Notes under the pieces: generated by a model
What the model was told of the DNA's origin: nothing
Databases searched by the model: none
Seen by the model: the letters and a program-made list of their open reading frames with translations, nothing else
Translations under genes and position numbers: made by a program
Shown here: positions 1 to 47,335 of the stretch, in pieces
How the letters are laid out: every line of letters starts with the position of its first letter
Position numbering within the stretch: position 1 is the first letter of the stretch
NCBI GenBank assembly: GCA_021927905.1
Contig: BLLK01000019.1
Location: 248,001-312,000, forward strand
DNA from: Chaetoceros tenuissimus
Taxonomy: Eukaryota; Bacillariophyta; Thalassiosirophyceae; Chaetocerotales; Chaetocerotaceae
Length of the DNA stretch: 64,000 nucleotides
Direction: 5' to 3'

Positions 1-1434
1 CGATACTTCGAGAGCTTGATGAAGTGATCTCATATTTTCCGAATCGTATCCTCCTCCAAACATGCGCATGTTTTCTGCCTGTAGTTTAAGTCTTTTTTCT
101 TCTTCTTTCCGCTTTGCTTGTCTTCGAGCTTCTTCTTCGTCCTGATTAGCATCTACCTCACGGAAAGCATTCATGGCATCTGCGCACATGTCATCTTCCA
201 CCATAGTGATATCGATCAGGCAGCGTTTTTTCTCAACAAGCAAAGGAGCTTGTTCTCCTGATTCTTCTCCTTCTACAACTGGTTCCATATTTTTTTCCTG
301 ATGGAAGATAGCTACAAGCGCCTCTTTGTTACTGACATTTGGATAATGTTTCTTTATAGTTCTCATTTCGAACCAAAGATAGAGTCCCAAAACATAAATG
401 CCTTGTGATTCGCAACATATAACATCCATGATCTGATAGATGAGTCCAGATTGGAATGCAAAAAACATTTGAATGTAAAATGCAAATATAAGGAATACCA
501 CAAAAGCACAATTGCTTGCATCGCAATATCTTTTGTAGCTTCAAAGTTACTGAGACTTATTGCTGGGTGCAACTGTTGCTGCTGATTTGACAGTTGCCTA
601 AAACTGGAAAGAGAACGCTCATTAATCTGCTGTTCTTCACGGAATGTCTTGTAGATAATCAGAAGCATAGCTAATGTTCCAAATACAAATATTCCAGTAA
701 AAACCGCACAAAAGATCGTGATACTTATATCATCATCTAAAAATGGAAGTATTACACATAATCCGGCCACAGGATTGGGAGCAATAGCTGCATTCCTAAG
801 CAGCACAAATCTAGTGTACCAAACTGTTACAAAGAAAATGACTGTATAAGCCACAGCCTCCACAATTGGTGAAATCTTCTTGCCAACTCCATAATTTAAC
901 CTCAAAAGAAAATAGAGACATAGCCAACAACAGGCAAACATGAAGGCTGTGTAACAAGAAAAGTCGATGATACTTTGAACATAGCAGCCCAATGTGATGT
1001 CGCTCGTTTCTTTGACAATTTCACTGAAATTAAAAAAAGAGGTTGAGACAGCAGGGAAACTCATTTTATTTGCCAGGCTTCCACTGATGCCTGCTACCAA
1101 AACGTTTCCCGCTGAAAAAGTAGAGAATATTGCAAGAGCGCACATAATGCGATGATAGATTGGCTGCTTTGATTCTTCATCAGGATACTTCTTTCTTGAT
1201 ATTAGAAATAAGAGAAGAAAGTTACATGAAATAGAGATTGCAGCTACTGCAGTGTAAATTTCTGCAACAAATGTTTCGATGCTAGTTGCTGTTTCCTCAT
1301 GATGGTTCTCTTGTTCCGTCGTGCGTATCAACAACAGGAACATCGTCAAGCTTTTTGCCGGACAAATTGCTTTGAACGTCATCGCCTACAACCAAGAATC
1401 TGCTGTCAATAGTATAATGAAGAGTAGGAATCAT
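1..1434 (-). pseudogene. Seven-TM receptor (cAMP-receptor/secretin-like), degraded paralogue, runs off the window start
   Basis: This is a close relative of the intact gene at 10794-12641, in opposite orientation. The first six membrane segments and the loop motif YKTFREEQQINERS are retained. Two defects are visible. Near 501-510 the reading frame slips just after DIAMQAI; the intact copy continues VVFLIFAFYIQ, and here that sequence sits in another frame (a one-base loss near the A-run 502-505 would explain it). At the N-terminus the ATG matching the intact copy (1434) is out of frame with TM1 because of an extra segment of about 43 nt; a fortuitous ATG at 1382 restores an open frame. The C-terminal acidic, coiled-coil-like tail is still recognisable down to base 1, so the gene continues beyond the window. 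It is either a pseudogene or an intact gene with sequence errors. The receptor class is inferred from topology only. Confidence 0.7.
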
Positions 1435-10793: not shown

Positions 10794-12641
10794 ATGAGAT
10801 ATGGGAAGGTTTTTCATGTTGTATCAACAATACAAACATTTTTGCACAACAATTGGAATTACACTACACCACCTATGACTATGATTCGAGCTTTTCATTA
10901 CTCTAGTGACAGCAGATTCTTGGTTGAAGGCCAGAGCAATTTATCCGACACGACGGAACAAGGGAGCCATGAGGAAACACCCCCAACTAGCATGGAAACA
11001 TTTGTTGCAGAAATATACACTGCAGCAGCTGCAATCTCTATTGCATGTAATTTTCTCCTCTTATTTCTAATTTCAAGAAAGAAGTATCCCGATGAAGAAT
11101 CAAAGCAGCCAGTCTATACTCGCATCATGTGCGCTCTTGCAATTATTTCCAGTTTCTCAGCGGGAAACTATTTTGTAGCCGGTATCAGTGGAAGCCTTGC
11201 CGATAACATGAGCTTCCCTGCTGTCTCTAGCTCTTTTTTTAATTTCAGTGAAATTGTCAAAGAAACGAGCGACATTTCATTGAAATGTTACATTCAAAGT
11301 ATCATCGACTTTTCTTGTTATGTTGCCTTCATGTTTAGCTGTTGTTGGCTATGTCTGTATTTTCTGTTGAGAATGAATTACGGAGTTGCCAGGATTTCAC
11401 TATTCGTAGAAATTGCAATTTATACAGTGATTTCCCTTGTAACAGTTTGGTACACTAGATTTACATTGCTAAGGAATGTAACTGTGGCTCCAGATCCTTT
11501 GTTTGGAATGTGTTTAATATTGCCATTGTCAGATGACATAATTTTCGTGGTTTATTGGACGTTATTCACTGGAATATTCGTATTTGGAACAATATTGGCT
11601 ATGTTCCTGATAATCTACAAGACTTTTCGTGAAGAGCAGCAAATTAACGAGCGTTCTCTTTCCAGTTTCAGGCAACTGTCAAATCAGCAGCAACAAATGT
11701 ACCCAGTTATAAGTCGCAGTAGCTTTGAAGCCACAAAAGATATTGCGATGCAAGCAATTTCTTTCGTGGTATTTTTAATTTTTGCGTTCTACATTCAATT
11801 GTTTTTTGCATTCCAATCCGGACTCATCTATCAGATCATGGATGTTATATGTTGCGAATCACAAGGCATTTATGTTTTGGGACTCTATCTTTGGTTCGAG
11901 ATGAGAACGATAAAGAAACATTATCCAAATGTCAGTAACAAAGAGGCGCTTGTAGCTATCTTCCACCAGGAAAAAAATATGGAACCAGTTGTAGAAGGAG
12001 AAGAATCAAGAGAAGAGACTCCTTTGCTTGTTGAGAAAAAACGCTGCCTGATCGATATTACTATGGTGGAAGATGACATGTGCGCAGACGTCATGAATGC
12101 TTTTGATGAGGTAGATGCTGATCAGGACGAAGAAGAAGCTCGAAGACAAGCAAAGCGTAAAGAAGAAGAAAAAAGACTGAAACTACAGGCAGAAAACATG
12201 CGCATGTTTGGAGGAGAAGGATTCGACTCGTCACTTCACCAGGCTCTCAAGGCATCCTTTGGAGATTTGGATCTCGAAATAGCAAACCGCAAGCTCAATC
12301 ATTATAACGCCTCCAAGGATGCTAGCAAACCTGTGACTCATCGATATGGAAGCATTGATCCAGCAACTTTTCGAACTGAAACCACAGAGGAAGAAGTAGA
12401 TAATTTATCAGCAGAGGGGACACGAGATCAATCTCAACTGAAAATAGTGGGCGAAGGAATGGTCATGGAGGAGATTGAAGAAGGAGATGAAGAAGAGGAG
12501 GAGGATGCCAAGGAAAGCAGTACAGATGACAAGAATCAAGAACAAGAATCTTCTCATGCGCATGCGCCCGCGCAACAGCCACAAGGTGCTGGAAGAAGTG
12601 TCATATCAGACCTTACCATGATATCTACTTTGCGCTTTTGA
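10794..12641 (+). CDS. Seven-TM receptor, cAMP-receptor/secretin-like GPCR, with long acidic tail
   Basis: A plasma-membrane receptor candidate. After a short extracellular N-terminus there are about seven hydrophobic segments, from TM1 near the motif NFLLLFLISRKKYPDEE to the last one near QIMDVICCESQGIYVLGLYL. The loop after TM5 has FREEQQINERSLSSFRQLSN, resembling cytoplasmic loop 3 of Dictyostelium cAMP-receptor-like proteins. The C-terminal 220 residues are cytoplasmic: a charged coiled-coil-like stretch (EEEARRQAKRKEEEKRLKLQ) and an acidic EEGDEEEEEDAKE run, suited to phosphorylation and scaffolding. The frame opens at 10794, but comparison with the degraded copy at the window start favours the ATGs at 10875/10881. 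No classical DRY motif is evident, so GPCR assignment rests on topology and loop resemblance. It is the intact member of an inverted pair. Confidence 0.72.
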   Translation: MRYGKVFHVVSTIQTFLHNNWNYTTPPMTMIRAFHYSSDSRFLVEGQSNLSDTTEQGSHEETPPTSMETFVAEIYTAAAAISIACNFLLLFLISRKKYPDEESKQPVYTRIMCALAIISSFSAGNYFVAGISGSLADNMSFPAVSSSFFNFSEIVKETSDISLKCYIQSIIDFSCYVAFMFSCCWLCLYFLLRMNYGVARISLFVEIAIYTVISLVTVWYTRFTLLRNVTVAPDPLFGMCLILPLSDDIIFVVYWTLFTGIFVFGTILAMFLIIYKTFREEQQINERSLSSFRQLSNQQQQMYPVISRSSFEATKDIAMQAISFVVFLIFAFYIQLFFAFQSGLIYQIMDVICCESQGIYVLGLYLWFEMRTIKKHYPNVSNKEALVAIFHQEKNMEPVVEGEESREETPLLVEKKRCLIDITMVEDDMCADVMNAFDEVDADQDEEEARRQAKRKEEEKRLKLQAENMRMFGGEGFDSSLHQALKASFGDLDLEIANRKLNHYNASKDASKPVTHRYGSIDPATFRTETTEEEVDNLSAEGTRDQSQLKIVGEGMVMEEIEEGDEEEEEDAKESSTDDKNQEQESSHAHAPAQQPQGAGRSVISDLTMISTLRF

Positions 12642-18926: not shown

Positions 18927-20420
18927 ATGCCTACAAATAAAAAGAAAACAACAAAGAAGAACCAAAGAAACAAGAACAAGAATGAAAATAGCACCAGCAA
19001 TAGAAATCAAGCTGGAAAGCGCAAAGATGATATACCAGACGATGTTTTCGAAGAGTTTCTCGAGTGGTCTTTGAGTGATAAAGAAGATATTAATGCAAGG
19101 AAATTTGAAAAGAAAGCACCTCGGGCTGCAGAGCTATTGAAAGAACATGATCCAAACACGATTGTTAAAAGATTGGTTAAGAAAAGGGAGGAAAGACTTG
19201 AAGAACTAGAGAAACAATCAAATGAATATGATACAAACTTGTATAGAAATATTTTTATAGAATCCATGACGGGTTACTTCAAGAGTGAAGGAGAAAAATT
19301 TGACTTTGGTCAGCAGCTTGATGCCGCAATAAAGCGCATAGAAAAGAAAATTCCTTTGTCAACACTTGCACTCAAAGTTACATTTGAAGAAGTTGCAGAG
19401 AAATGGGCAAAGCAACGTATCATCTCTCTGGAGAATAATCGGTATTATCAGAAAGATCCAACTACTATTCTTAAACTCATCGAAGAAGATAAGGTCAATA
19501 TGATCAAAATGGAATCTGACATATTCCAAAGATATGAAGAAATTAAAGAAAAACTCGTATACAAGTCCTATGCGAAAACTCACTTTATGAATTATGACAT
19601 AGGAGATACATTATTTATGTATGCATGTAACTTTCGGCTAAGATATACGTGCTGGTGTTGTGGCAGAGATTATCATTTGATTTGTTCGAGTTGTAAATGT
19701 GCTCGATATTGCTCCAAAGAATGCCAAGTCAAACATTGGAAAACTGATCATAAGAAGAAGTGTAAATATATTGGTGATACATGGTCACTCTATTTATCAA
19801 ACAAGCAACGATTACATAAAGCAGTTAAAGACAAAAGAATTTGGACGGACAAACTGTTCTTCGATGCCGATGAAAACAGTCGTGAGTGTTTTCTCCGTCC
19901 AAGTCCAAGTATAGATACTTTCTTAAGTTCTATGGTGAATATGGACTCGTACTCATCGCCTCTTCATAAATTCTATGAGCAGATGGCAATCTTAAGTTGC
20001 GGAGGGAAGCATCCACTGTTTGGTAATGAGACTGTGAATCCTGCTCTTAACTTGTTTTTGGAGCATTTAGGCAGTGATTGCAATGATGAAGACGTAACGT
20101 TGCCTACTGATGGAAATAAAATGTTACTTACAAATCTTCTCAGGCTCTCTTTCAAGAATCAAAAGATTGAGCAGAATGAGATAGATGCCATGGTCAAATA
20201 TGTATTTGAAATTTTTGCTGATTTACCAGGCCATAATGAGAGCTCTTGGAAAGAACGAATCGAGATTGCACAGAAAGAAACAAAATGTAATTCTTTGACA
20301 CTTGACAAATTTCTGACTCTCTACACATGTTTTGATCCTCTGGATTTGTACAACGAAGTAGTTAGTGGGGATAAGTACACCGGTGAATTTGTTTTATTGA
20401 CTACGCTTAAATCTCTATGA
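18927..20420 (+). CDS. MYND zinc-finger protein, paralogue 1
   Basis: A 497-residue cytosolic or nuclear protein. The first 35 residues are Lys/Asn-rich. Then comes DDIPDDVFEEFLEWSL, a domain start shared with the paralogue at 21797, a helical region with KSEGEKFDFGQQLDAA, and the MYND finger CWCCGRDYHLICSSCKCARY with CSKECQVKHWKTDHKKKC (about residues 240-277). The Cys/His spacing is the full two-zinc set, a protein-protein interaction module. A C-terminal helical domain includes LSCGGKHPLFGNETVNP. No catalytic domain is seen; in particular no SET half was found. MYND proteins are expanded in diatoms, and their partners are unknown here. Confidence 0.82.
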   Translation: MPTNKKKTTKKNQRNKNKNENSTSNRNQAGKRKDDIPDDVFEEFLEWSLSDKEDINARKFEKKAPRAAELLKEHDPNTIVKRLVKKREERLEELEKQSNEYDTNLYRNIFIESMTGYFKSEGEKFDFGQQLDAAIKRIEKKIPLSTLALKVTFEEVAEKWAKQRIISLENNRYYQKDPTTILKLIEEDKVNMIKMESDIFQRYEEIKEKLVYKSYAKTHFMNYDIGDTLFMYACNFRLRYTCWCCGRDYHLICSSCKCARYCSKECQVKHWKTDHKKKCKYIGDTWSLYLSNKQRLHKAVKDKRIWTDKLFFDADENSRECFLRPSPSIDTFLSSMVNMDSYSSPLHKFYEQMAILSCGGKHPLFGNETVNPALNLFLEHLGSDCNDEDVTLPTDGNKMLLTNLLRLSFKNQKIEQNEIDAMVKYVFEIFADLPGHNESSWKERIEIAQKETKCNSLTLDKFLTLYTCFDPLDLYNEVVSGDKYTGEFVLLTTLKSL

Positions 20421-21360: not shown

Positions 21361-21796
21361 CTTCCGAACTATTTATTTGCCAATACTTGATCAAAAGAGA
21401 GAAAAGTTAAGAGAAGTGTTATTAACTTTAGAGTGAAAGCTTTCACAGAAGTAAAAGATTTAACTTGAAGCGTCGTCTTGAAAAGTCACACGTGAATCCA
21501 AGATGCGAAGGCTCGCAATCAAACAGATGGGACTAAATACCCGTCAATTTAACTGTTTATATCTTTCTCTCAAGTCTAACGAAAATGTCCTCTCTACCAT
21601 CTGCTCTCATGTTGAGGAAAACGTCATCACACAAATCTTATGTGCGTTAAGGAGAAGTCTAGAGGCTACGTGGAGAGCGTTGCTGATGTAGAAGAAAGAA
21701 GAACTACGAAGTGTGCAGCTTCAACACTGTATCGGATAGTATTTATAAAATAATTTCTACCGGTTTTACGTGCTTCCTCTTCTGAAAATAAGAACT
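21361..21796. other. Divergent intergenic region
   Basis: Presumed promoters of the membrane protein (-) and the second MYND gene (+). No gene or repeat supported. Confidence 0.4.
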
Positions 21797-23210
21797 ATGA
21801 AAGAAAGTACTTCTTCGTCTACATCTGCAACTCATTCGGATGACTTGCCTGATAATGTTTTTGAGGAGTTCTTCAAATGGTCGTTTACTATCAAATTTAA
21901 CTCTGATCATCTAACTGACAGGAAATTTTCAAAAAAGGCTCCAACCGCTGCTTTGATGCTTCGAGAAGGCAAAGTTATGATCGACACACTTGAAAGATTT
22001 GACCTGAAATTTTCTTCTCCTACTTCTTTTTTGTTAAATTCCCTATCTAGTCATTTCAAAAGTGAAGGTGAACGACTTGATTTTGGGCAGAAACTCCAAG
22101 CTGCATTCAGAAAGAAGAAATTAAAGGATGAAAGCAAAGAATCCATCGAGATATATCAGAAAATTTTTGATGAACATGCTGAGAAATGGTCCAAAAGGCG
22201 TGAAATATCTATCCAAGAATGCCGTTTTTATCAAAAGCCAGCCAAAGAGTTCAATCGGCAGTTTACTTCAGATTCAAAACTTTTGAGAAAGCATCAAGAA
22301 TTGGAAAGTGAAATGAACTTAGCAGACATTAGTACTGATGATTTTCTACGTACCTTTTTGGTGACAGCTCTTGAACCTAGCTCTGTTCGAGTACGATATC
22401 AGTGTTGGCATTGTGAAACAAACTATGAGGGAGAGCAGCGGAAATTAAAAACAGTATGCCAAGGATGTGAATGTGCCCAGTACTGTTCGAGAGAATGCCA
22501 AAAAGAGAATTGGAAAAAAGGACATCAAGAAAAGTGTAAAGATATTGCCGGCATTTGGTCAATTTACCATTCAAATAAAAAACGCGTGGAAAAGGCGAGA
22601 AGGGATGGGAGAATTTTGAGTGAATCAGTTTTGGTGAATGGAGAAGAATATCAATGTTTCATACAACCGAGCATGTTCTTCGACAATCAAGTTTGTGCTG
22701 AAATGAGCATAAGTGAACTCTCAATAGATACGTTTTACAGAAATGTTGCTACTATTTCATGTGGGAGGGGAACATCCAATATTTGGGGATGAGACTGCTA
22801 GTCCTGATGACCTGCTGCAACACACAGAATCTATGCCATTTGAACTTTTACCCAACGAAATTAAAGCAATGAGAATGATAGCAATTGCACTAGCAGTAGA
22901 TAATTCACGTTGGGACAAGGAATCACTGCAAAGATTAAGAATGAAGACAAAAGATGTATATGGCTACGAAGAGTTTTCTCTCAATAGATTTCTTGTCATA
23001 TATTCACGTTTACAGGAGACTTCGGTCGTAAAGGGGAAACCATGGGATTACTTTGTTATTCATGATTTGAAGTTCCACAATACTCGCTACGTTGAAACTG
23101 GAAGACAACCAACTCACCGTTTTAGCGATGAAATTTTGAAAGGTACCGGTCTAGTATGGCAGAAGTTATCAGATACAGAGGCAAGGGACAAAATGCTGAT
23201 CAAAATGTAA
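21797..23210 (+). CDS. MYND zinc-finger protein, paralogue 2, with a one-base frameshift
   Basis: Paralogue of the gene at 18927. It shares the order DDLPDNVFEEFFKWS, FKSEGERLDFGQKLQAAF, the MYND finger (CWHC, then CQGCECAQYCSRECQKENW and HQEKC) and the C-terminal SCG-GEHPIFGDETASP. Between SCG and GEHPIFG the frame slips: at 22761-22770 the sequence GTGGGAGGGG has one G more than the sister gene needs. Without that base the two halves join exactly as in paralogue 1. This is a G-run indel, either true inactivation or sequence error. The start is ATG 21797. The zinc ligands are complete. The protein is longer at the C-terminus than paralogue 1, ending at TAA 23208 or spliced onward (see next entry). 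Confidence 0.72.
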
Positions 23211-38338: not shown

Positions 38339-40985
38339 TCAATTCAACTCATCATGTTTTTCTATGATCTTTTTGATGATGCAGTAGAGACTGACTTGGC
38401 GATATTCTTTTTGGGTGTAGATTGGAGTTGCAATATCTTGATACACTTTCATGAATTTTTCAGGTGTATTTTCCAAAAAGTAATCAAAGTTTGGCTCGGT
38501 GCCTTTGTCATGATCTTGTTCGTGAACCACAATGATGGGGATCTTTTCATCAATGACAGCTTGAAGGATTGGTCCTAGCTTTGCAATGTTTCTCTCTGCA
38601 AAAGTATCTTTGTTCAAATATAGAAGAAAAACCTTGAAGTTTTTTGACTCGAGTTGAGATCTCAGTAGACTCCCGCTTTCTTGGTTCATATGAAATTGAG
38701 TTTCAGTAGGAGCTTCGACCTTTTCACTGCTGTCCGTTAGCTGCTGAGGGTTTTTGGCTGTTATGCTTTCCTTCGATTCTTTCAAAATCATGTCTTCAAG
38801 TGAAAAACAACCTGGAACAATACCGAACCATGTTACGTAGTCCTCGGCAACTTTGTCTGAGGCTAACGATTGAATTGCAAATGGTTCTACATCAGATAAA
38901 GACTTTGAGTGGGAGTATATCGTAGATACTACATGTGGTGCTTTGAGACTCTCTTCATCGTGCGATATCCCATTTTCAGCCATGTCAACAATTCTTACCA
39001 CTGGCTTGTCTAGCATTATCACAATTTCTTCAGCAATTTCATTAGAACCTTTATTGGAAGAAATGACAAGGATATCTAATGGAAACTTGATATGTAGAAT
39101 TTTCTCATCATTCGGCATGAGTAAGCCTTTATCACATGCACTCGGTCCAACTTCTTCTTTGTAATATGGTAATTCCTTTAGTATCCTCAAGTAGATAAGT
39201 TTCAAGGATTCAGATGAAAAACTACCACTTTTCAACCACAGGATAGTCTTTTCCTTCCAAACGTTCTCACTCCATAATTCCAATCCGTCATCATTGTTTT
39301 CGCAATTTATTTCACATTCGTTTTTCATAATACCGAGCTCACAATTGGAACCGTCATAGACAACAATGATGGGTTTGTCAAGATGAAGAGCTTGGAAAAA
39401 CTCTCGTCTACAGTTTTTGCTTTCAAAGTAACCTCGACTATAGCAAAGGAGAAAGACAGCACTTTCTTTTACAGATTGCTCCAGATTTTCTGTACTTGAT
39501 AGATTATCGACATCGAGCCATATTCTAAGTTCAGTCATGTAAAGCTGAAGCTTCCTCGCTATAGAATGGCATTTATCCTGCCCACCTTTCCACTTATGAG
39601 ACATGAAGATATGATACTTGCAGTCCTCATGGAGATTGAGATCAGGAGGATACCCTGTACTTTTCAATCTTGCTATTGGTGAATATTGAGATTGAAATAT
39701 TAAAGCTGCAACTGTTACAAAGAGCATTACTGACATGACTGCTATCACAAATATAGATGCTCTTTTCCAGTTTAAAGAATACCCGAAATAAATCCGACAT
39801 GCGCCATCATATTCACATATCCCCAAGACGGAACTATATGCAAATGCTAGTGTCAAGAGGTAGCTACTAAGAACTGCTAATTGAAAGTCATCATGTCTCT
39901 TGTACGGTCTGACATACAACAAGATGAGCATATACAAACTTGAAATTGCAGTTCCTATGGTGGCTTTTAGTAATTTGCTCGTGCCTCGTGGATCTATAAA
40001 ATTGATGAATCCAAGTAGGAAAACTTTGCGCACAGAATCCACAATGTCCCAGTAGATGGCTATATTCGAATTTTGATGAAAGTCTGCCCATAGAAATGCA
40101 AACTTTTTGGCAAATAAACTTGGTCTGAAGGCTAGCAACTATCCCAAATAATCCCAACAATGTAGAACATGGCCAAAGGACAAAGAAAATTGGAAAGAGT
40201 AATGTCAAAATAAAACTATCTCGTACTTTTTCCGATGAGCAGCTAAAAAACTGATCATTGTAATCATCATCTCCTATTTCGTCATGCGGGATAAACTTGC
40301 AACGTTTTGGTACAAATATTTGTTTTGAAATAATTGGCAGAGCTATGTAAAAGATGACCACGGCAATTTGACCTATTGTGGTACTTTCTTCCTTGGTATT
40401 ACTGTTCATGGTCTTACAATACTTTTTCAGCCTTTTCACTAAAAAGTATAGTACCCAAACACAAAGACAAAGTAAATATGGCCAGACTCCAGTAATAATA
40501 TAGGCAATTTCAATTTCAGTCATCCATTGCAATGGGACAAAGTTGAGACCGAAGATCAATGTAAAGTAACGAAAGATTCGTTGCATATCTGGATGCATTT
40601 TGATTCCATAGACGTCTTGAAAGGCAGACATGATTTGATAGAATCCGACCAATATTTTGAGCTTTGAATAAACACTGATGCTTCTGATTGTATTTGATAG
40701 AGTAGTTAAACGACCCGTATACCAAACGAAGAAAGAGAAAACCAGTAGCAGCGATAAAGTTATTATTCCAGAGAGGATGAAGAATCCTATCCCTGAAAAT
40801 CCGGACAATCCTCCTTGTGGACGCAGGTAGATATCCTCCTCGTCTCTATAGTAGTGAGCAGTAGTACCAGGTGTCAAGAGCAAGAATAAACTCAAAAGGA
40901 GTTGCACTAAAGGACTTTTGAATGAAATCATTCTTGAAGAATGAAGAACAGAGTCTACTCTTCCTTCTCTGAATATTTTTTCCAT
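38339..40985 (-). CDS. Short TIR-domain multipass receptor, paralogue 2, with internal deletion/frameshift
   Basis: Close paralogue of the gene at 42304 but without its GCC2/GCC3 ectodomain. A signal-like segment (VQLLLSLFLLLTPGTTA, best start ATG 40931 or 40985) leads into the multipass domain (KLKILVGFYQIMSAFQDVYG, VIFYIALPIISKQIF, IYWDIVDSVRKVFLLGFINF, LYVRPYKRHDDFQL). The cytoplasmic TIR domain follows: YHIFMSHKWKGGQDKC, RIWLDVDNLSS, VFLLCYSRGYFESKNCRREF (Glu in the NADase position) and PIIVVYDG. A second alpha/beta unit at the C-terminus has FKVFLLYLNKDTF and IPIIVVHEQD. Near 40125-40147 the two halves are in different frames, and about 30 nt present in the sister gene is missing. This may be a pseudogene or hold an assembly error; the TIR half (599 codons) is intact. 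Confidence 0.75.
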
Positions 40986-42303: not shown

Positions 42304-45300
42304 TCACTTTCTGTTAGTGTATAAAGTATTCATCTTATGAAGGACTTGACAGAAGCTGACATATCGATACTCCTTACGACTATAAAGAGGAATTGCAATA
42401 TCTTCATACAAAACCATCAAGTCATCAGGTGTTTGTTGCAAGATACAGTCAAAGTTTGGAATCGCTCCCTTTTCCATGTCTTGTTCATGGAGTACAATCA
42501 CAGGAAGATTCTTTTGAATAATTGACTTGAGAATGGGTTGAATATTGACTATTGCTTGTTTCTCAAACATGTCTTTGTTCACATAGAAAAGAAATACTTT
42601 GAAAGTCGTACTAGACCTCCAAAAGGAAGAACGTAAATTCTCAGTCAGTAAGCTATCGACAACTATGGATGATTGCATCTCAGCATCTTCTTGCAACAGT
42701 GGAGATTGCTGATATTCTTCTTGTCGATCCTGAGTTTCGTTCGATTCCGTTTGTGCAACATGTAATTCTCCTATTTGTATGGAAGAGTTCTGTCTACTAT
42801 GATTGGAAGTAGAAGAATGGTTGACCTCATCAATAGCATCTGTTTTGTCTTTCTCTTTTTCAGACTTGGGCACATGAAAATTTATACTGACTCTATTCTC
42901 TTCGTCTCCAGATAGATCAGTCAATTTGATGAAACTATGACTCACACTCTGAATCTCATTGGCAATTTCGACAGCGCCAATATTGTATGAGCTAAAGAGA
43001 AGCTCTGTGCGAAACCTTAATTTCGGTATTTTCTCATCGTTGGGCATCGATAACCCTTTCGATAACAAGGGTGCATTTGAACAAGTCTTGTAGTATGGTA
43101 GGCATTCCAAAATCCTTAAATAGATCAGTTTCAATGACTCTGATGAGAACGTCCCAGCCTTCAGCCATTGAATAGCCAAAGAGTCAAAATGAAGAGATAC
43201 AAAATCATTGACTTTCCTTGCCATATCATCGATATTATTTTGCCATTCACACTCGGCAAATCCATTCTTTTCGAGGATTTCTCTAATCTCATCTTCAAAA
43301 TCTTGGTTCGTGGTTATTCTAAAACATTCTTCTGCAATGATTTTGAGAACACTATTGTCACCATCATAAACAACAACCATTAGTTTGTCTAGCAGTAGGG
43401 CTTGGAAGAACTCGCGTCTACAATTCTTGCTTTCAAAGTAACCTTGACTATAGGAAAGGAGGAACACTACACTCTCCTTCACAGATTGCTCAAGGTCATC
43501 TATATTCGAAAGATTGTCGACATCAAGCCATACCTTCAATTCTGTCATGTAAAGCTGCAGCTTTCTTGCAATAGAATGGCATCTATCTTGGCCGCCCTTC
43601 CACTTATGAGACATAAAGACATGATATTCGCAATCTTCGGGTAGATTGAGATTAGGTGGATAACCAGTCTTCTTCAACCTAGCAATCGGTGCATATCTTG
43701 TTTGGATGATCATAGTCACAACAGTTATTACCATCATGAGGGCAACAAGTATTGTTACAAGGATAGAAGCACCAAGCGAATCATCGACTCCAAAACCAAC
43801 ATATTTCTTACACGCTCCATCATCTTCATTCTCACAAATCTTTAGAATATATCCAAAAGAAAATGCAAGAGTAATGAGGAAACTACTCAGCATTGACAAC
43901 TGAAAATCATCTTGTCTCTTATAAGGCCTCACGTAAAGGAGGACTAGCATGAATGCACTGGACACTGCTACAGCCACTGTCAGTCTAAGCAGCTTATTTG
44001 ATCCTTCATTTTGATCAATGAAGTTAATGAAGCCAACTAGAAATAGCTTACGGACAAAGTCAATGATATCCCAATAGATGGCGATGTTTGAAGTCTGATC
44101 GAAATCAGACCAAAGAAATTTACATTTCATTGCTAATGCGGTTGGTCTTTCATGTCGGACTGAAGAGAATATTCTCGAGACGAGTACAGCAAATCCCATG
44201 AGTGCCAGACAAGGCCAAACAGTGAAGAACACCCAGAATATGATTTGCAGATTCTTGAAGTTGTTATCTAAGCTTGCATCGCATCGTATTGTCTTTGAAG
44301 ATACGAGGTAGCTCTCGAAGGTATCATTTTCATCGTCTGTCTTGAAAGCTTCGCATATTTTTGCATCGAAAATATGCTTCGAGACTACTGGCAAGGCGAA
44401 ATAAAAGACAAAGATGATTATCTGATGTGTAGATATCTTCTCTATAATATGATCCAAAGTATGATTCTTTCTGGTATTGAAATTTCGACGACTTAACTTG
44501 AGTACCTGATAGCATGCAACTATCAACAGACATAGGATATAGGGCCAAAGCCCACTGATGATGAATGCAGGTATTGTACCAATGAATTCTAGTGGAAAAG
44601 ATGAGAGGAAATCAAAGCTGAATACATTGGTCATGAAATGAAAACTTCCTTTCACTTGATCATGAAGAGCAACTCCATAGACGTCAGTGAAACAGGCCAT
44701 GATTTGGTAGAAGCCTACGAATATCTTCAGTTTGCATTGCATATTGAGACTTGCTATTGTAAATGCCAATGGCATCAGATACCTTTTCATCTTCAGCATA
44801 GCGTAAGTGCAAGGTAGAATTAGCACTACTATGACTGCGAAGTAAATTAGAAACCTGTATGGCCTACATGTTTTGCATTGACCCTTCATTTTGTCAAAAT
44901 ATTGATTACGAACGGTACATGTCTCCAAACCTCCATGATATCCCTCAGCACAATATTCATTCATTAAATGAAACTTTGGTGATATATGATGCCTTGACAA
45001 TGAATTGTCAATAGGACTACAGGCAGATGCGAAATTACATTTGTAAATTTGAGACGTATTCTTTGTAGCTCTCCAATATCCTGATCGAATTGTAATGTTA
45101 GCAAGAGTTGTACCAACGCTGCAATCTGTTGAATTGTCTACAGTTGGGCATGGGAGACAGTACTCTCTTGGATATTCATATAAGGTCTCAGCATTCACAG
45201 ATATATCCTTTAAGTAGTATCCTCTCATACACACTGAACAATGCGTATTGCCGTCATTGAAGTTGGTAAGAGGAAATGGACATTCATTACATTTCGAAGA

Positions 45301-46691
45301 TCCTTCGAATACAGTATGATTTCCTTCTTCGCACAACTTGCAACTACTTTGTCCGTCCAGATCATTGTAAGTTCCTGGTTCACATCGCTTACATTGATGT
45401 TGGCCTTCTTCATGTGTGTAAGTTCCCCTGGGACACGGCAAACAAAATTTGCTATTTCAAAGGAGTAAGTGCCTTTTCTACATTTCTTGCAAGAATGACC
45501 ACCTTGTATATCTTGATATGTCCCCGGACCGCAAAGATTGCAGATATGCTGTCCCATCTCACTTTGATATGTACCAACTTCACATTCTTTGCAGTTGATG
45601 TACGATCCATTTACAAAGTCATTGGAATATGTCCCAGCTCTGCACTTTTTGCATTCAGGTTGTCCAATTTCATTCTGGTATTCTCCCAATATACAACTTT
45701 TGCACTGAGTTTCTCCTTTCCTACTTTGGAATTCACCGAAGTTGCAATATTTACATGATGATTGTCCATGTAATGGCTGGTATTGTCCTTTATGGCATGG
45801 TGAGCAAGACTCTGACGCTGTAGTATTTGTAAATTCACCAGGATTGCAACTTTCGCAGCTTGTGGCACCTAACTCATCAGAAAATGTACCTTCTGTACAA
45901 CTATTACATTCAGATTGTCCAATTTTGGACTGGTAATGACCCTTCATACATGGAGTACAAACGTTCGACGATACTGCTCCTACCTCATTCGAGGCTGTTC
46001 CTTCATCACATTGTTCACATCTGTCTTGACCGGGTTTATCTTGATAATGCCCTGCTGGACACATTGCACAAGAAATAGAGGATGTTGTATTAGCAAACGT
46101 TCCAACCCCACATTGCTTGCATTCGCTTAAACCAGGCTCATCAGAGAATTCTCCAAGAGGACAATCCAAACAATATGACTGACCAAGCCTTGATTGAAAT
46201 TTCCCTCTTGGACAATCAACACAAGTCGTAGATCCCGTAGTATTGGAATATGTTCCAGCTAGGCATGTTGCACACTTTATTTGACCAGTGGAGTTAGTAT
46301 ACGTTCCTATTCGGCATTCATTACAAGAAGCTTGGCCACTTGACGATTGAAAATAACCGACTTCACAAGGCTTACATTTTGCACTTCCTTTTTCATTTGC
46401 ATAATGACCTCTATCACAAGCCGTACAAACAGCTGAAGCAATCTCAGAAGCATAGGTACCTTCAGGGCAAGGTCGACAATGATCAGCAATACCATTTCCA
46501 ATAGTTCCAATAGGACAAGGGATACATTTCGTCTCGGAATTTTCTTTGCTGGGATCGGTTGGTATCCTTTCAACATAATATCCAGAGGGACACAGAGTAC
46601 CAGCATTTAAAGCTGATGCCACACGCCTAAGATAGCTTAATTGGAAAATTATCGGAAAAATTAGATTGAGTCTCATCCTCAAAGGCATCAT
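42304..46691 (-). CDS. Giant TIR receptor: signal peptide, about 25 GCC2/GCC3 Cys-rich units, multipass domain, TIR
   Basis: About 1460 aa. Start ATG 46691 (next ATG 46688) precedes a signal peptide (MRLNLIFPIIFQL). Then come some 25 tandem units of the C-x2-C-x2-G form with GTY.....G...C (for example CPAGHYQDKPGQDRC), the ephrin-receptor-like GCC2/GCC3 type, and a Cys-rich juxtamembrane region. About eight membrane segments start at FLIYFAVIVVLILPCTYAML and include the protist-type core LKIFVGFYQIMACFTDVYG. The cytoplasmic TIR domain (roughly 1030-1125) has YHVFMSHKWKGGQDRC, KVWLDVDNL, VFLLSYSQGYFESKNCRREF and LMVVVYDGD; the Glu after CRR is in the catalytic NADase position. A C-terminal alpha/beta unit has FKVFLFYVNKDMF and LPVIVLHEQD. 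Between FVC and PCPRGTY (45431-45443) one or four bases are missing. It is probably a plasma-membrane sensor. Confidence 0.85.
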
Positions 46692-47335
46692 GAAAACATA
46701 CGTAAAGCTACTTCTAGTTTTTTTATTGCTTCTTGTGTTCTGTCCTCCATGGTAGAGTTTTTCCGGAAGCAAAACGCATGACACATTTGCTTCTTCGTCT
46801 TCTCAATTTCCTGCGTCCATTCATAAATCAGTAGAAATGTGTATCATCTTGTCATCTTGCACATGAATATTTCTCATTGATAATCATGTGGATGTACAGA
46901 AAAGGATGAAAAGATGAAGCCGATCTAAAAAAATAAAGAAGGCGTAGATTGTTACGAGGAAAATCCAACAAGAACCTTTTGCTTCTCTTATTCTATTGAA
47001 AGCATCAAAGCAGCTATGCTTCAATGATATCTTCTTTTTATTTCGCTGAAGCACAATACTTCATCAGACATTTACTTCTTGTAGATCTAAGTGTTTGTGA
47101 ATAAAACCTTGAGAAGAAGAATTCTTAGTGATACGGTTGGAGTGGTCATTCGGACAAGTCACACTCTGTCACATCTCAAACCACGATATCATTAGATAGA
47201 AAGAATAGGTTGGAAACCTGTCCCATCTCATCGTTCAATCCCAACCCTTCATTTTATCTATCGCACAAGCCAGCATCCTAATTCAATTCAATTGGAGTAA
47301 CAGAAGGCACTTCTACTACTCAATTAGTAATCAAG
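46692..47335. other. Divergent promoter region, TIR receptor / bL33m
   Basis: Non-coding 644 bp between divergent starts. A short hairpin GGTTGG...CCAACC lies at about 47210-47250. No RNA gene was supported. Confidence 0.4.

Follow-up and report, generated by a model that had tools for sequence, protein, structure and literature searches.

A diatom locus joining Cys-rich repeats, a multipass membrane domain and a TIR domain: a probable member of a small receptor family with interchangeable ectodomains

Does the locus at 42304-46691 of the window (the whole 64,000-nucleotide stretch of DNA analysed here) encode a single membrane receptor, and if so, would its cytoplasmic TIR domain act as an enzyme or as a scaffold? 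The whole gene is carried by the minus strand, running from 46691 to 42304; a plus-strand reading of the same interval contains many stops and was rejected. All the domains named in the initial annotation are present on this strand and in the order it gave. It had, however, missed two features, namely a frame break near position 45441 and a conserved domain following the TIR (Table 1). The diatom origin that it proposed is borne out by a search with the silicon-transporter family (11 matches above cut-off, best E 2e-211).

Table 1. Features of the receptor-like locus and of its tandem neighbour (window coordinates)
Feature	Position	Strand	Basis or remark
Start codon and signal-peptide-like hydrophobic N-terminus (MMPLRMRLNLIFPIIFQLSYLRRVASALNA...)	46593..46691	-	Direct reading; putative signal peptide, from sequence
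Cys-rich ectodomain, first part, 21 CxxCxxG units, GCC2_GCC3/Ephrin_rec_like family	45442..46592	-	PF07699; pattern count
Frame break between two open frames, assembly error or real indel	45430..45450	-	ORF list and sequence
Ectodomain, last part: rest of repeats and membrane-proximal Cys module (GYWR ... C ... C)	44860..45441	-	PF07699, two stretches; translations, alignment
Multipass membrane domain, nine predicted segments	43702..44859	-	Hydropathy and loop charges
TIR domain, including aE helix (WLK..SSESLKLIYL)	43042..43689	-	TIR_2 match; AF2 model; structural match to SARM1 TIR
C-terminal region: variable linker and conserved domain of ~100 residues	42304..43041	-	Alignments; weak match to TIR profile
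Tandem paralogue without Cys-rich ectodomain	38339..40985	-	Possibly a decaying copy

The gene is read from two overlapping minus-strand frames, one covering the ectodomain (45225-46784) and the other the membrane and TIR part (42304-45441). The ectodomain matches PF07699 (formerly GCC2_GCC3, now Ephrin_rec_like) with a score of 205.2 bits, against a curated Pfam cut-off of 23.1; its N-terminal frame contains 13 matching stretches, and the next frame adds two. Direct counting yields 24 CxxCxxG units plus one spanning the junction, i.e. 25, in agreement with the "about 25" repeats first announced. The single frame break falls near 45441, within a T-rich stretch located between repeats. As the frame is broken there, the window copy alone is no proof of one protein, and two adjoining genes, one for a Cys-rich protein that is secreted and the other for a protein with the membrane and TIR parts, might have been misread as one. 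The position of the break, inside the ectodomain, and the existence of a tandem copy without the Cys-rich part both suit such a split, but PF07699 repeats run on across the break with no spacer between them. Moreover, a paralogue located on another contig (C38) consists of one unbroken frame of 2158 codons, which encodes seven FG-GAP_3 stretches, two Ephrin_rec_like stretches, the membrane domain, the TIR and the C-terminal domain, in this order. Cys-rich repeats, membrane domain and TIR are thus joined in a single frame in this paralogue, and we consider it highly improbable that the locus consists of two genes.

Two explanations of the break itself have to be weighed. A second gene of the window, an apparent MYND zinc finger gene (21770-23210, plus strand), also loses its frame near 22.76 kb (22730-22800), within a run of G, whereas the paralogue at 18927-20420 keeps an unbroken frame; this G-run break may reflect base-calling errors in the assembly. 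Since a second window gene thus breaks frame, an assembly error at 45441 is plausible. The window copy could instead be a recently broken pseudogene, intact function being left to the C38 paralogue and other members. The adjoining paralogue likewise has a frame break, and lacks about 10 residues, near 40.1 kb, which speaks for such a decay, as does the break near 45441; but there are no in-frame stops over the 416 + 1045 codons flanking this single break, and the MYND gene fits base-calling error. In addition, pN amounts to 0.16 and pS to 0.64 in the TIR between the main gene and the window paralogue, and this low dN/dS (about 0.13 between the two copies) shows that the TIR is under purifying selection. 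We thus regard a pseudogene at this locus as improbable.

The locus is not alone of its kind. Our own-genome protein searches, conducted in one diatom genome (G000, 41.0 Mb in 68 contigs, the window being C13:248001-312000), recover the membrane-TIR-C-terminal core together at five loci. Neither the membrane part nor the C-terminal part was detected in G000 outside these five loci, apart from one chance-level C-terminal match (E 0.3), and scans for the family in IMG/VR viral contigs and GTDB prokaryote genomes returned pattern matches only, none of which was confirmed by tblastn. The ectodomains vary: a PF07699 array in the window gene, FG-GAP repeats in the C38 and C54 members, an LNR with a propeller-like stretch and one PF07699 unit in the C17 member, and none in the window paralogue. 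The membrane-proximal Cys module is also present in the C38, C54 and C17 members. This constant core with differing ectodomains would be the pattern typical of receptors with exchanged sensors; the five paralogues, one of them with its frame unbroken, strengthen the "receptor class" that had been proposed from the window gene.

Hydropathy delineates seven strong and two weak membrane segments, in keeping with the "about eight" first counted; a total of nine fits a topology with an extracellular ectodomain and a cytoplasmic TIR. The inner loops carry a net positive charge, in the C38 member as in the window gene, and two Cys are found in each of the outer loops preceding TM5 and TM9, so that an N-out/C-in arrangement of nine helices is predicted. 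No Pfam family, GPCR families included, matches the membrane region, and the AF2 model of the whole core is poor (pLDDT 50), too low to name the membrane fold. The CB1 receptor and ZnT8, which came up as PDB matches of the membrane part, were rejected, their match level being that expected of helical bundles. As a separate observation, the window also contains two paralogous multipass proteins resembling GPCRs, at 1-1382 (minus strand, with a frame break) and 10794-12641 (plus strand, intact), whose DNA is 86% identical.

The identity of the TIR domain, a domain of the STIR clan, can be assessed by both profile and structure. The window gene matches TIR_2 with 30.1 bits (Pfam cut-off 28), and contains all the motifs initially singled out (MSHKWKGG, VWLDVDNL and SKNCRREF). 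Among its relatives, the window paralogue (37.5) and the C54 member (30.3) also exceed the cut-off, while the C17 member (27.5) is just below it and the C38 member scores 21.1. The AF2 model of the TIR alone, built from the five family members, reaches a pLDDT of 72.6 and a pTM of 0.75, with elements in the order bA-aA-bB-aB-bC-aC-bD-aD-bE-aE, as in TIRs. A Foldseek search with this model gave 15 matches to solved structures at E<=0.001, and every one was a TIR. The top match in VIA-align is the human SARM1 TIR (Z 13.5, rmsd 2.4 over 129 residues, 24% identity), with plant TIRs coming next (Z about 12). The model thus predicts a five-stranded flavodoxin-like fold matching solved TIRs, and the comparison with SARM1 and plant TIRs, suggested at the outset as a check, upholds the domain assignment.

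Whether this TIR is an enzyme is a more delicate matter. Invariant residues gather in the AA loop (FMSH.W...QD..H), the BB region (WLDVD.L) and aC (YS.GYF.SKNCRREF). The Glu of SKNCRREF, in helix aC, is invariant in 5/5 members and, as first noticed, lies in the NADase position: in a profile alignment, it pairs with the Glu of WCVREL in RPS4, which is known as catalytic. A Glu also stands at the aligned place in TLR1, whose TIR is a scaffold, and a Glu in the catalytic position is thus not diagnostic of an NADase. Furthermore, in a comparison of sequences only, RPS4, TLR1 and the C18 TIR have BB loops longer by 2 to 4 residues. In view of the TLR1 Glu and of the short loop of the diatom TIR, the domain in the window gene may be either an enzyme or a scaffold, and we would place the likelihood of an NADase somewhat under even. 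Of the initial idea of a receptor class linking a cue to NAD-based or scaffold signalling, the class is upheld, and NAD-based signalling would be a candidate function.

A related alternative is that the membrane part is mainly a channel, a transporter or an adhesion protein, the TIR being a non-enzymatic scaffold with no NAD+ chemistry. Such a function is consistent with a multipass domain outside Pfam families, with the short BB loop and the Glu shared with TLR1, and with the presence of 11 further TIR loci in the genome, which could supply partners. However, it is in the NAD-binding parts of NADase TIRs that the invariant residues are concentrated, and the nearest structures are those of SARM1 and of plant NADase TIRs; we hold this alternative to be possible rather than probable.

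Several TIR loci elsewhere in the genome have organizations of their own. The strongest TIR_2 match in the genome (85 bits) is at the C-terminus of a 719-codon frame (L002, G000:C18:57259-57609, minus strand), where the TIR is preceded by a helical region that resembles, by eye, ARM repeats and a SAM domain, in a SARM1-like order; Pfam reports neither ARM nor SAM in this frame, and a PDB search matched the TIR only. At three loci (L007, L014 and L016, at C58:824044, C32:3535390 and C32:3674125), the TIR stands behind a region that looks, by eye, like a CHAT caspase-like domain (HFGMHG ... FLNTC), Pfam reporting only the TIR in the C58 member. Ankyrin-like repeats followed by a TIR are found at C10:18178 and C42:218211 (L004 and L005). 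As match scores are equal on both contigs, C10 (24 kb) may duplicate the C42 haplotype. Finally, a TIR is followed by apparent MORN repeats at C54:2755838 (L009).

Downstream of the TIR, the domain of about 100 residues that the initial annotation overlooked is conserved in the five members, according to alignments, with the pattern VFLxYxNKDxF ... PIIlvHEqD ... IAxPlY.rkEYR.VS. A PDB sequence search with this domain returned nothing, and Pfam contains no credible family for it. In a profile comparison, the VFLxYxNKDxF...PIIlvHEqD part is weakly in register with bC-aC-bD of the TIR (22% probability). It is thus possibly a degenerate second TIR or TIR half, a suggestion in keeping with so weak a comparison. 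If this were the case, the Glu would have been lost and the domain could regulate the first TIR.

Taken as a whole, the locus probably belongs to a small family of diatom receptors whose ectodomains are interchangeable, and which would signal by TIR clustering. Outside the cell, about 25 GCC2/GCC3 repeats would form a secreted disulfide-rich rod. A surface or dissolved cue would bind this ectodomain, or the membrane domain would change, and the signal would cross via the multipass domain of about nine helices. In the cytoplasm, the TIR and the second conserved domain would then act: TIR domains would be brought together, and would signal either by NAD+ cleavage or by recruitment of other TIR proteins. 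Ligand sensing and TIR clustering are what we infer from the architecture; known TIR systems are activated by clustering, whether they work as enzymes or as scaffolds. A more specific version, in which an extracellular cue directly controls an NADase TIR through interchangeable ectodomains on a constant nine-helix domain, possibly with regulation by the degenerate TIR-like domain, is tentative, and we deem it rather unlikely to hold in full.

How does such a receptor compare with known systems? Toll-like receptors similarly combine an extracellular sensor, a membrane crossing and a cytoplasmic TIR on one chain. The diatom protein differs from them in having no LRR according to Pfam, about nine membrane segments versus one, a TIR structurally nearer to those of SARM1 and plants, and an extra C-terminal domain. 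With SARM1 and the plant TIR NADases (RPS4, RUN1, L6), it shares the TIR fold (Z about 12 to 13.5) and the Glu in aC, but these proteins are soluble ARM-SAM-TIR or NLR proteins, whereas the diatom protein is a membrane-anchored putative receptor with a shorter BB loop. The ectodomain points to yet other proteins. Mst1 is a structural mastigoneme protein and Eph receptors carry kinase domains, and we know of no TIR in either of them; Pfam reports no kinase domain in the window gene. The same Cys repeat as in the diatom ectodomain is found in GCC2_GCC3/Ephrin_rec_like proteins such as the algal mastigoneme-like Mst1 (PDB 8tx1). Finally, TirC of Dictyostelium, a toxic NADase, is another protist TIR protein tethered to a membrane (PMC13142454). 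The diatom protein resembles TirC in this tethering, but a single hydrophobic helix is present at the N-terminus of TirC, which lacks an ectodomain.

TIR domains, GCC2/GCC3 repeats and FG-GAP repeats are each already known, and it is domains of the TIR kind that set off immune responses or the death of the cell in bacteria, plants and animals. Our literature search found no description of diatom TIR receptors, and the combination of a TIR with GCC2/GCC3 or FG-GAP repeats on a multipass core with exchanged ectodomains is absent from the literature searched. A recent collection of 7,432 eukaryotic TIR domains includes six clades made up of eukaryotic TIRs alone, none of which has a characterised member (2026 preprint, PMC13142454). 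The TIRs of the five loci may belong to one of these six clades. If the cue-controlled enzymatic version were true, the family would represent a membrane-gated NAD+ signal or cell-death switch in phytoplankton. To our knowledge, few cell-surface receptors are known by which diatoms would perceive bacteria, grazers, partners or dying neighbours, and TIR function is almost unexplored beyond animals, plants, bacteria and a few amoebae. A constant signalling core with exchanged sensors thus constitutes a concrete and testable candidate for diatom sensing receptors, and single-celled algae may sense their surroundings by an undescribed membrane-TIR pathway.
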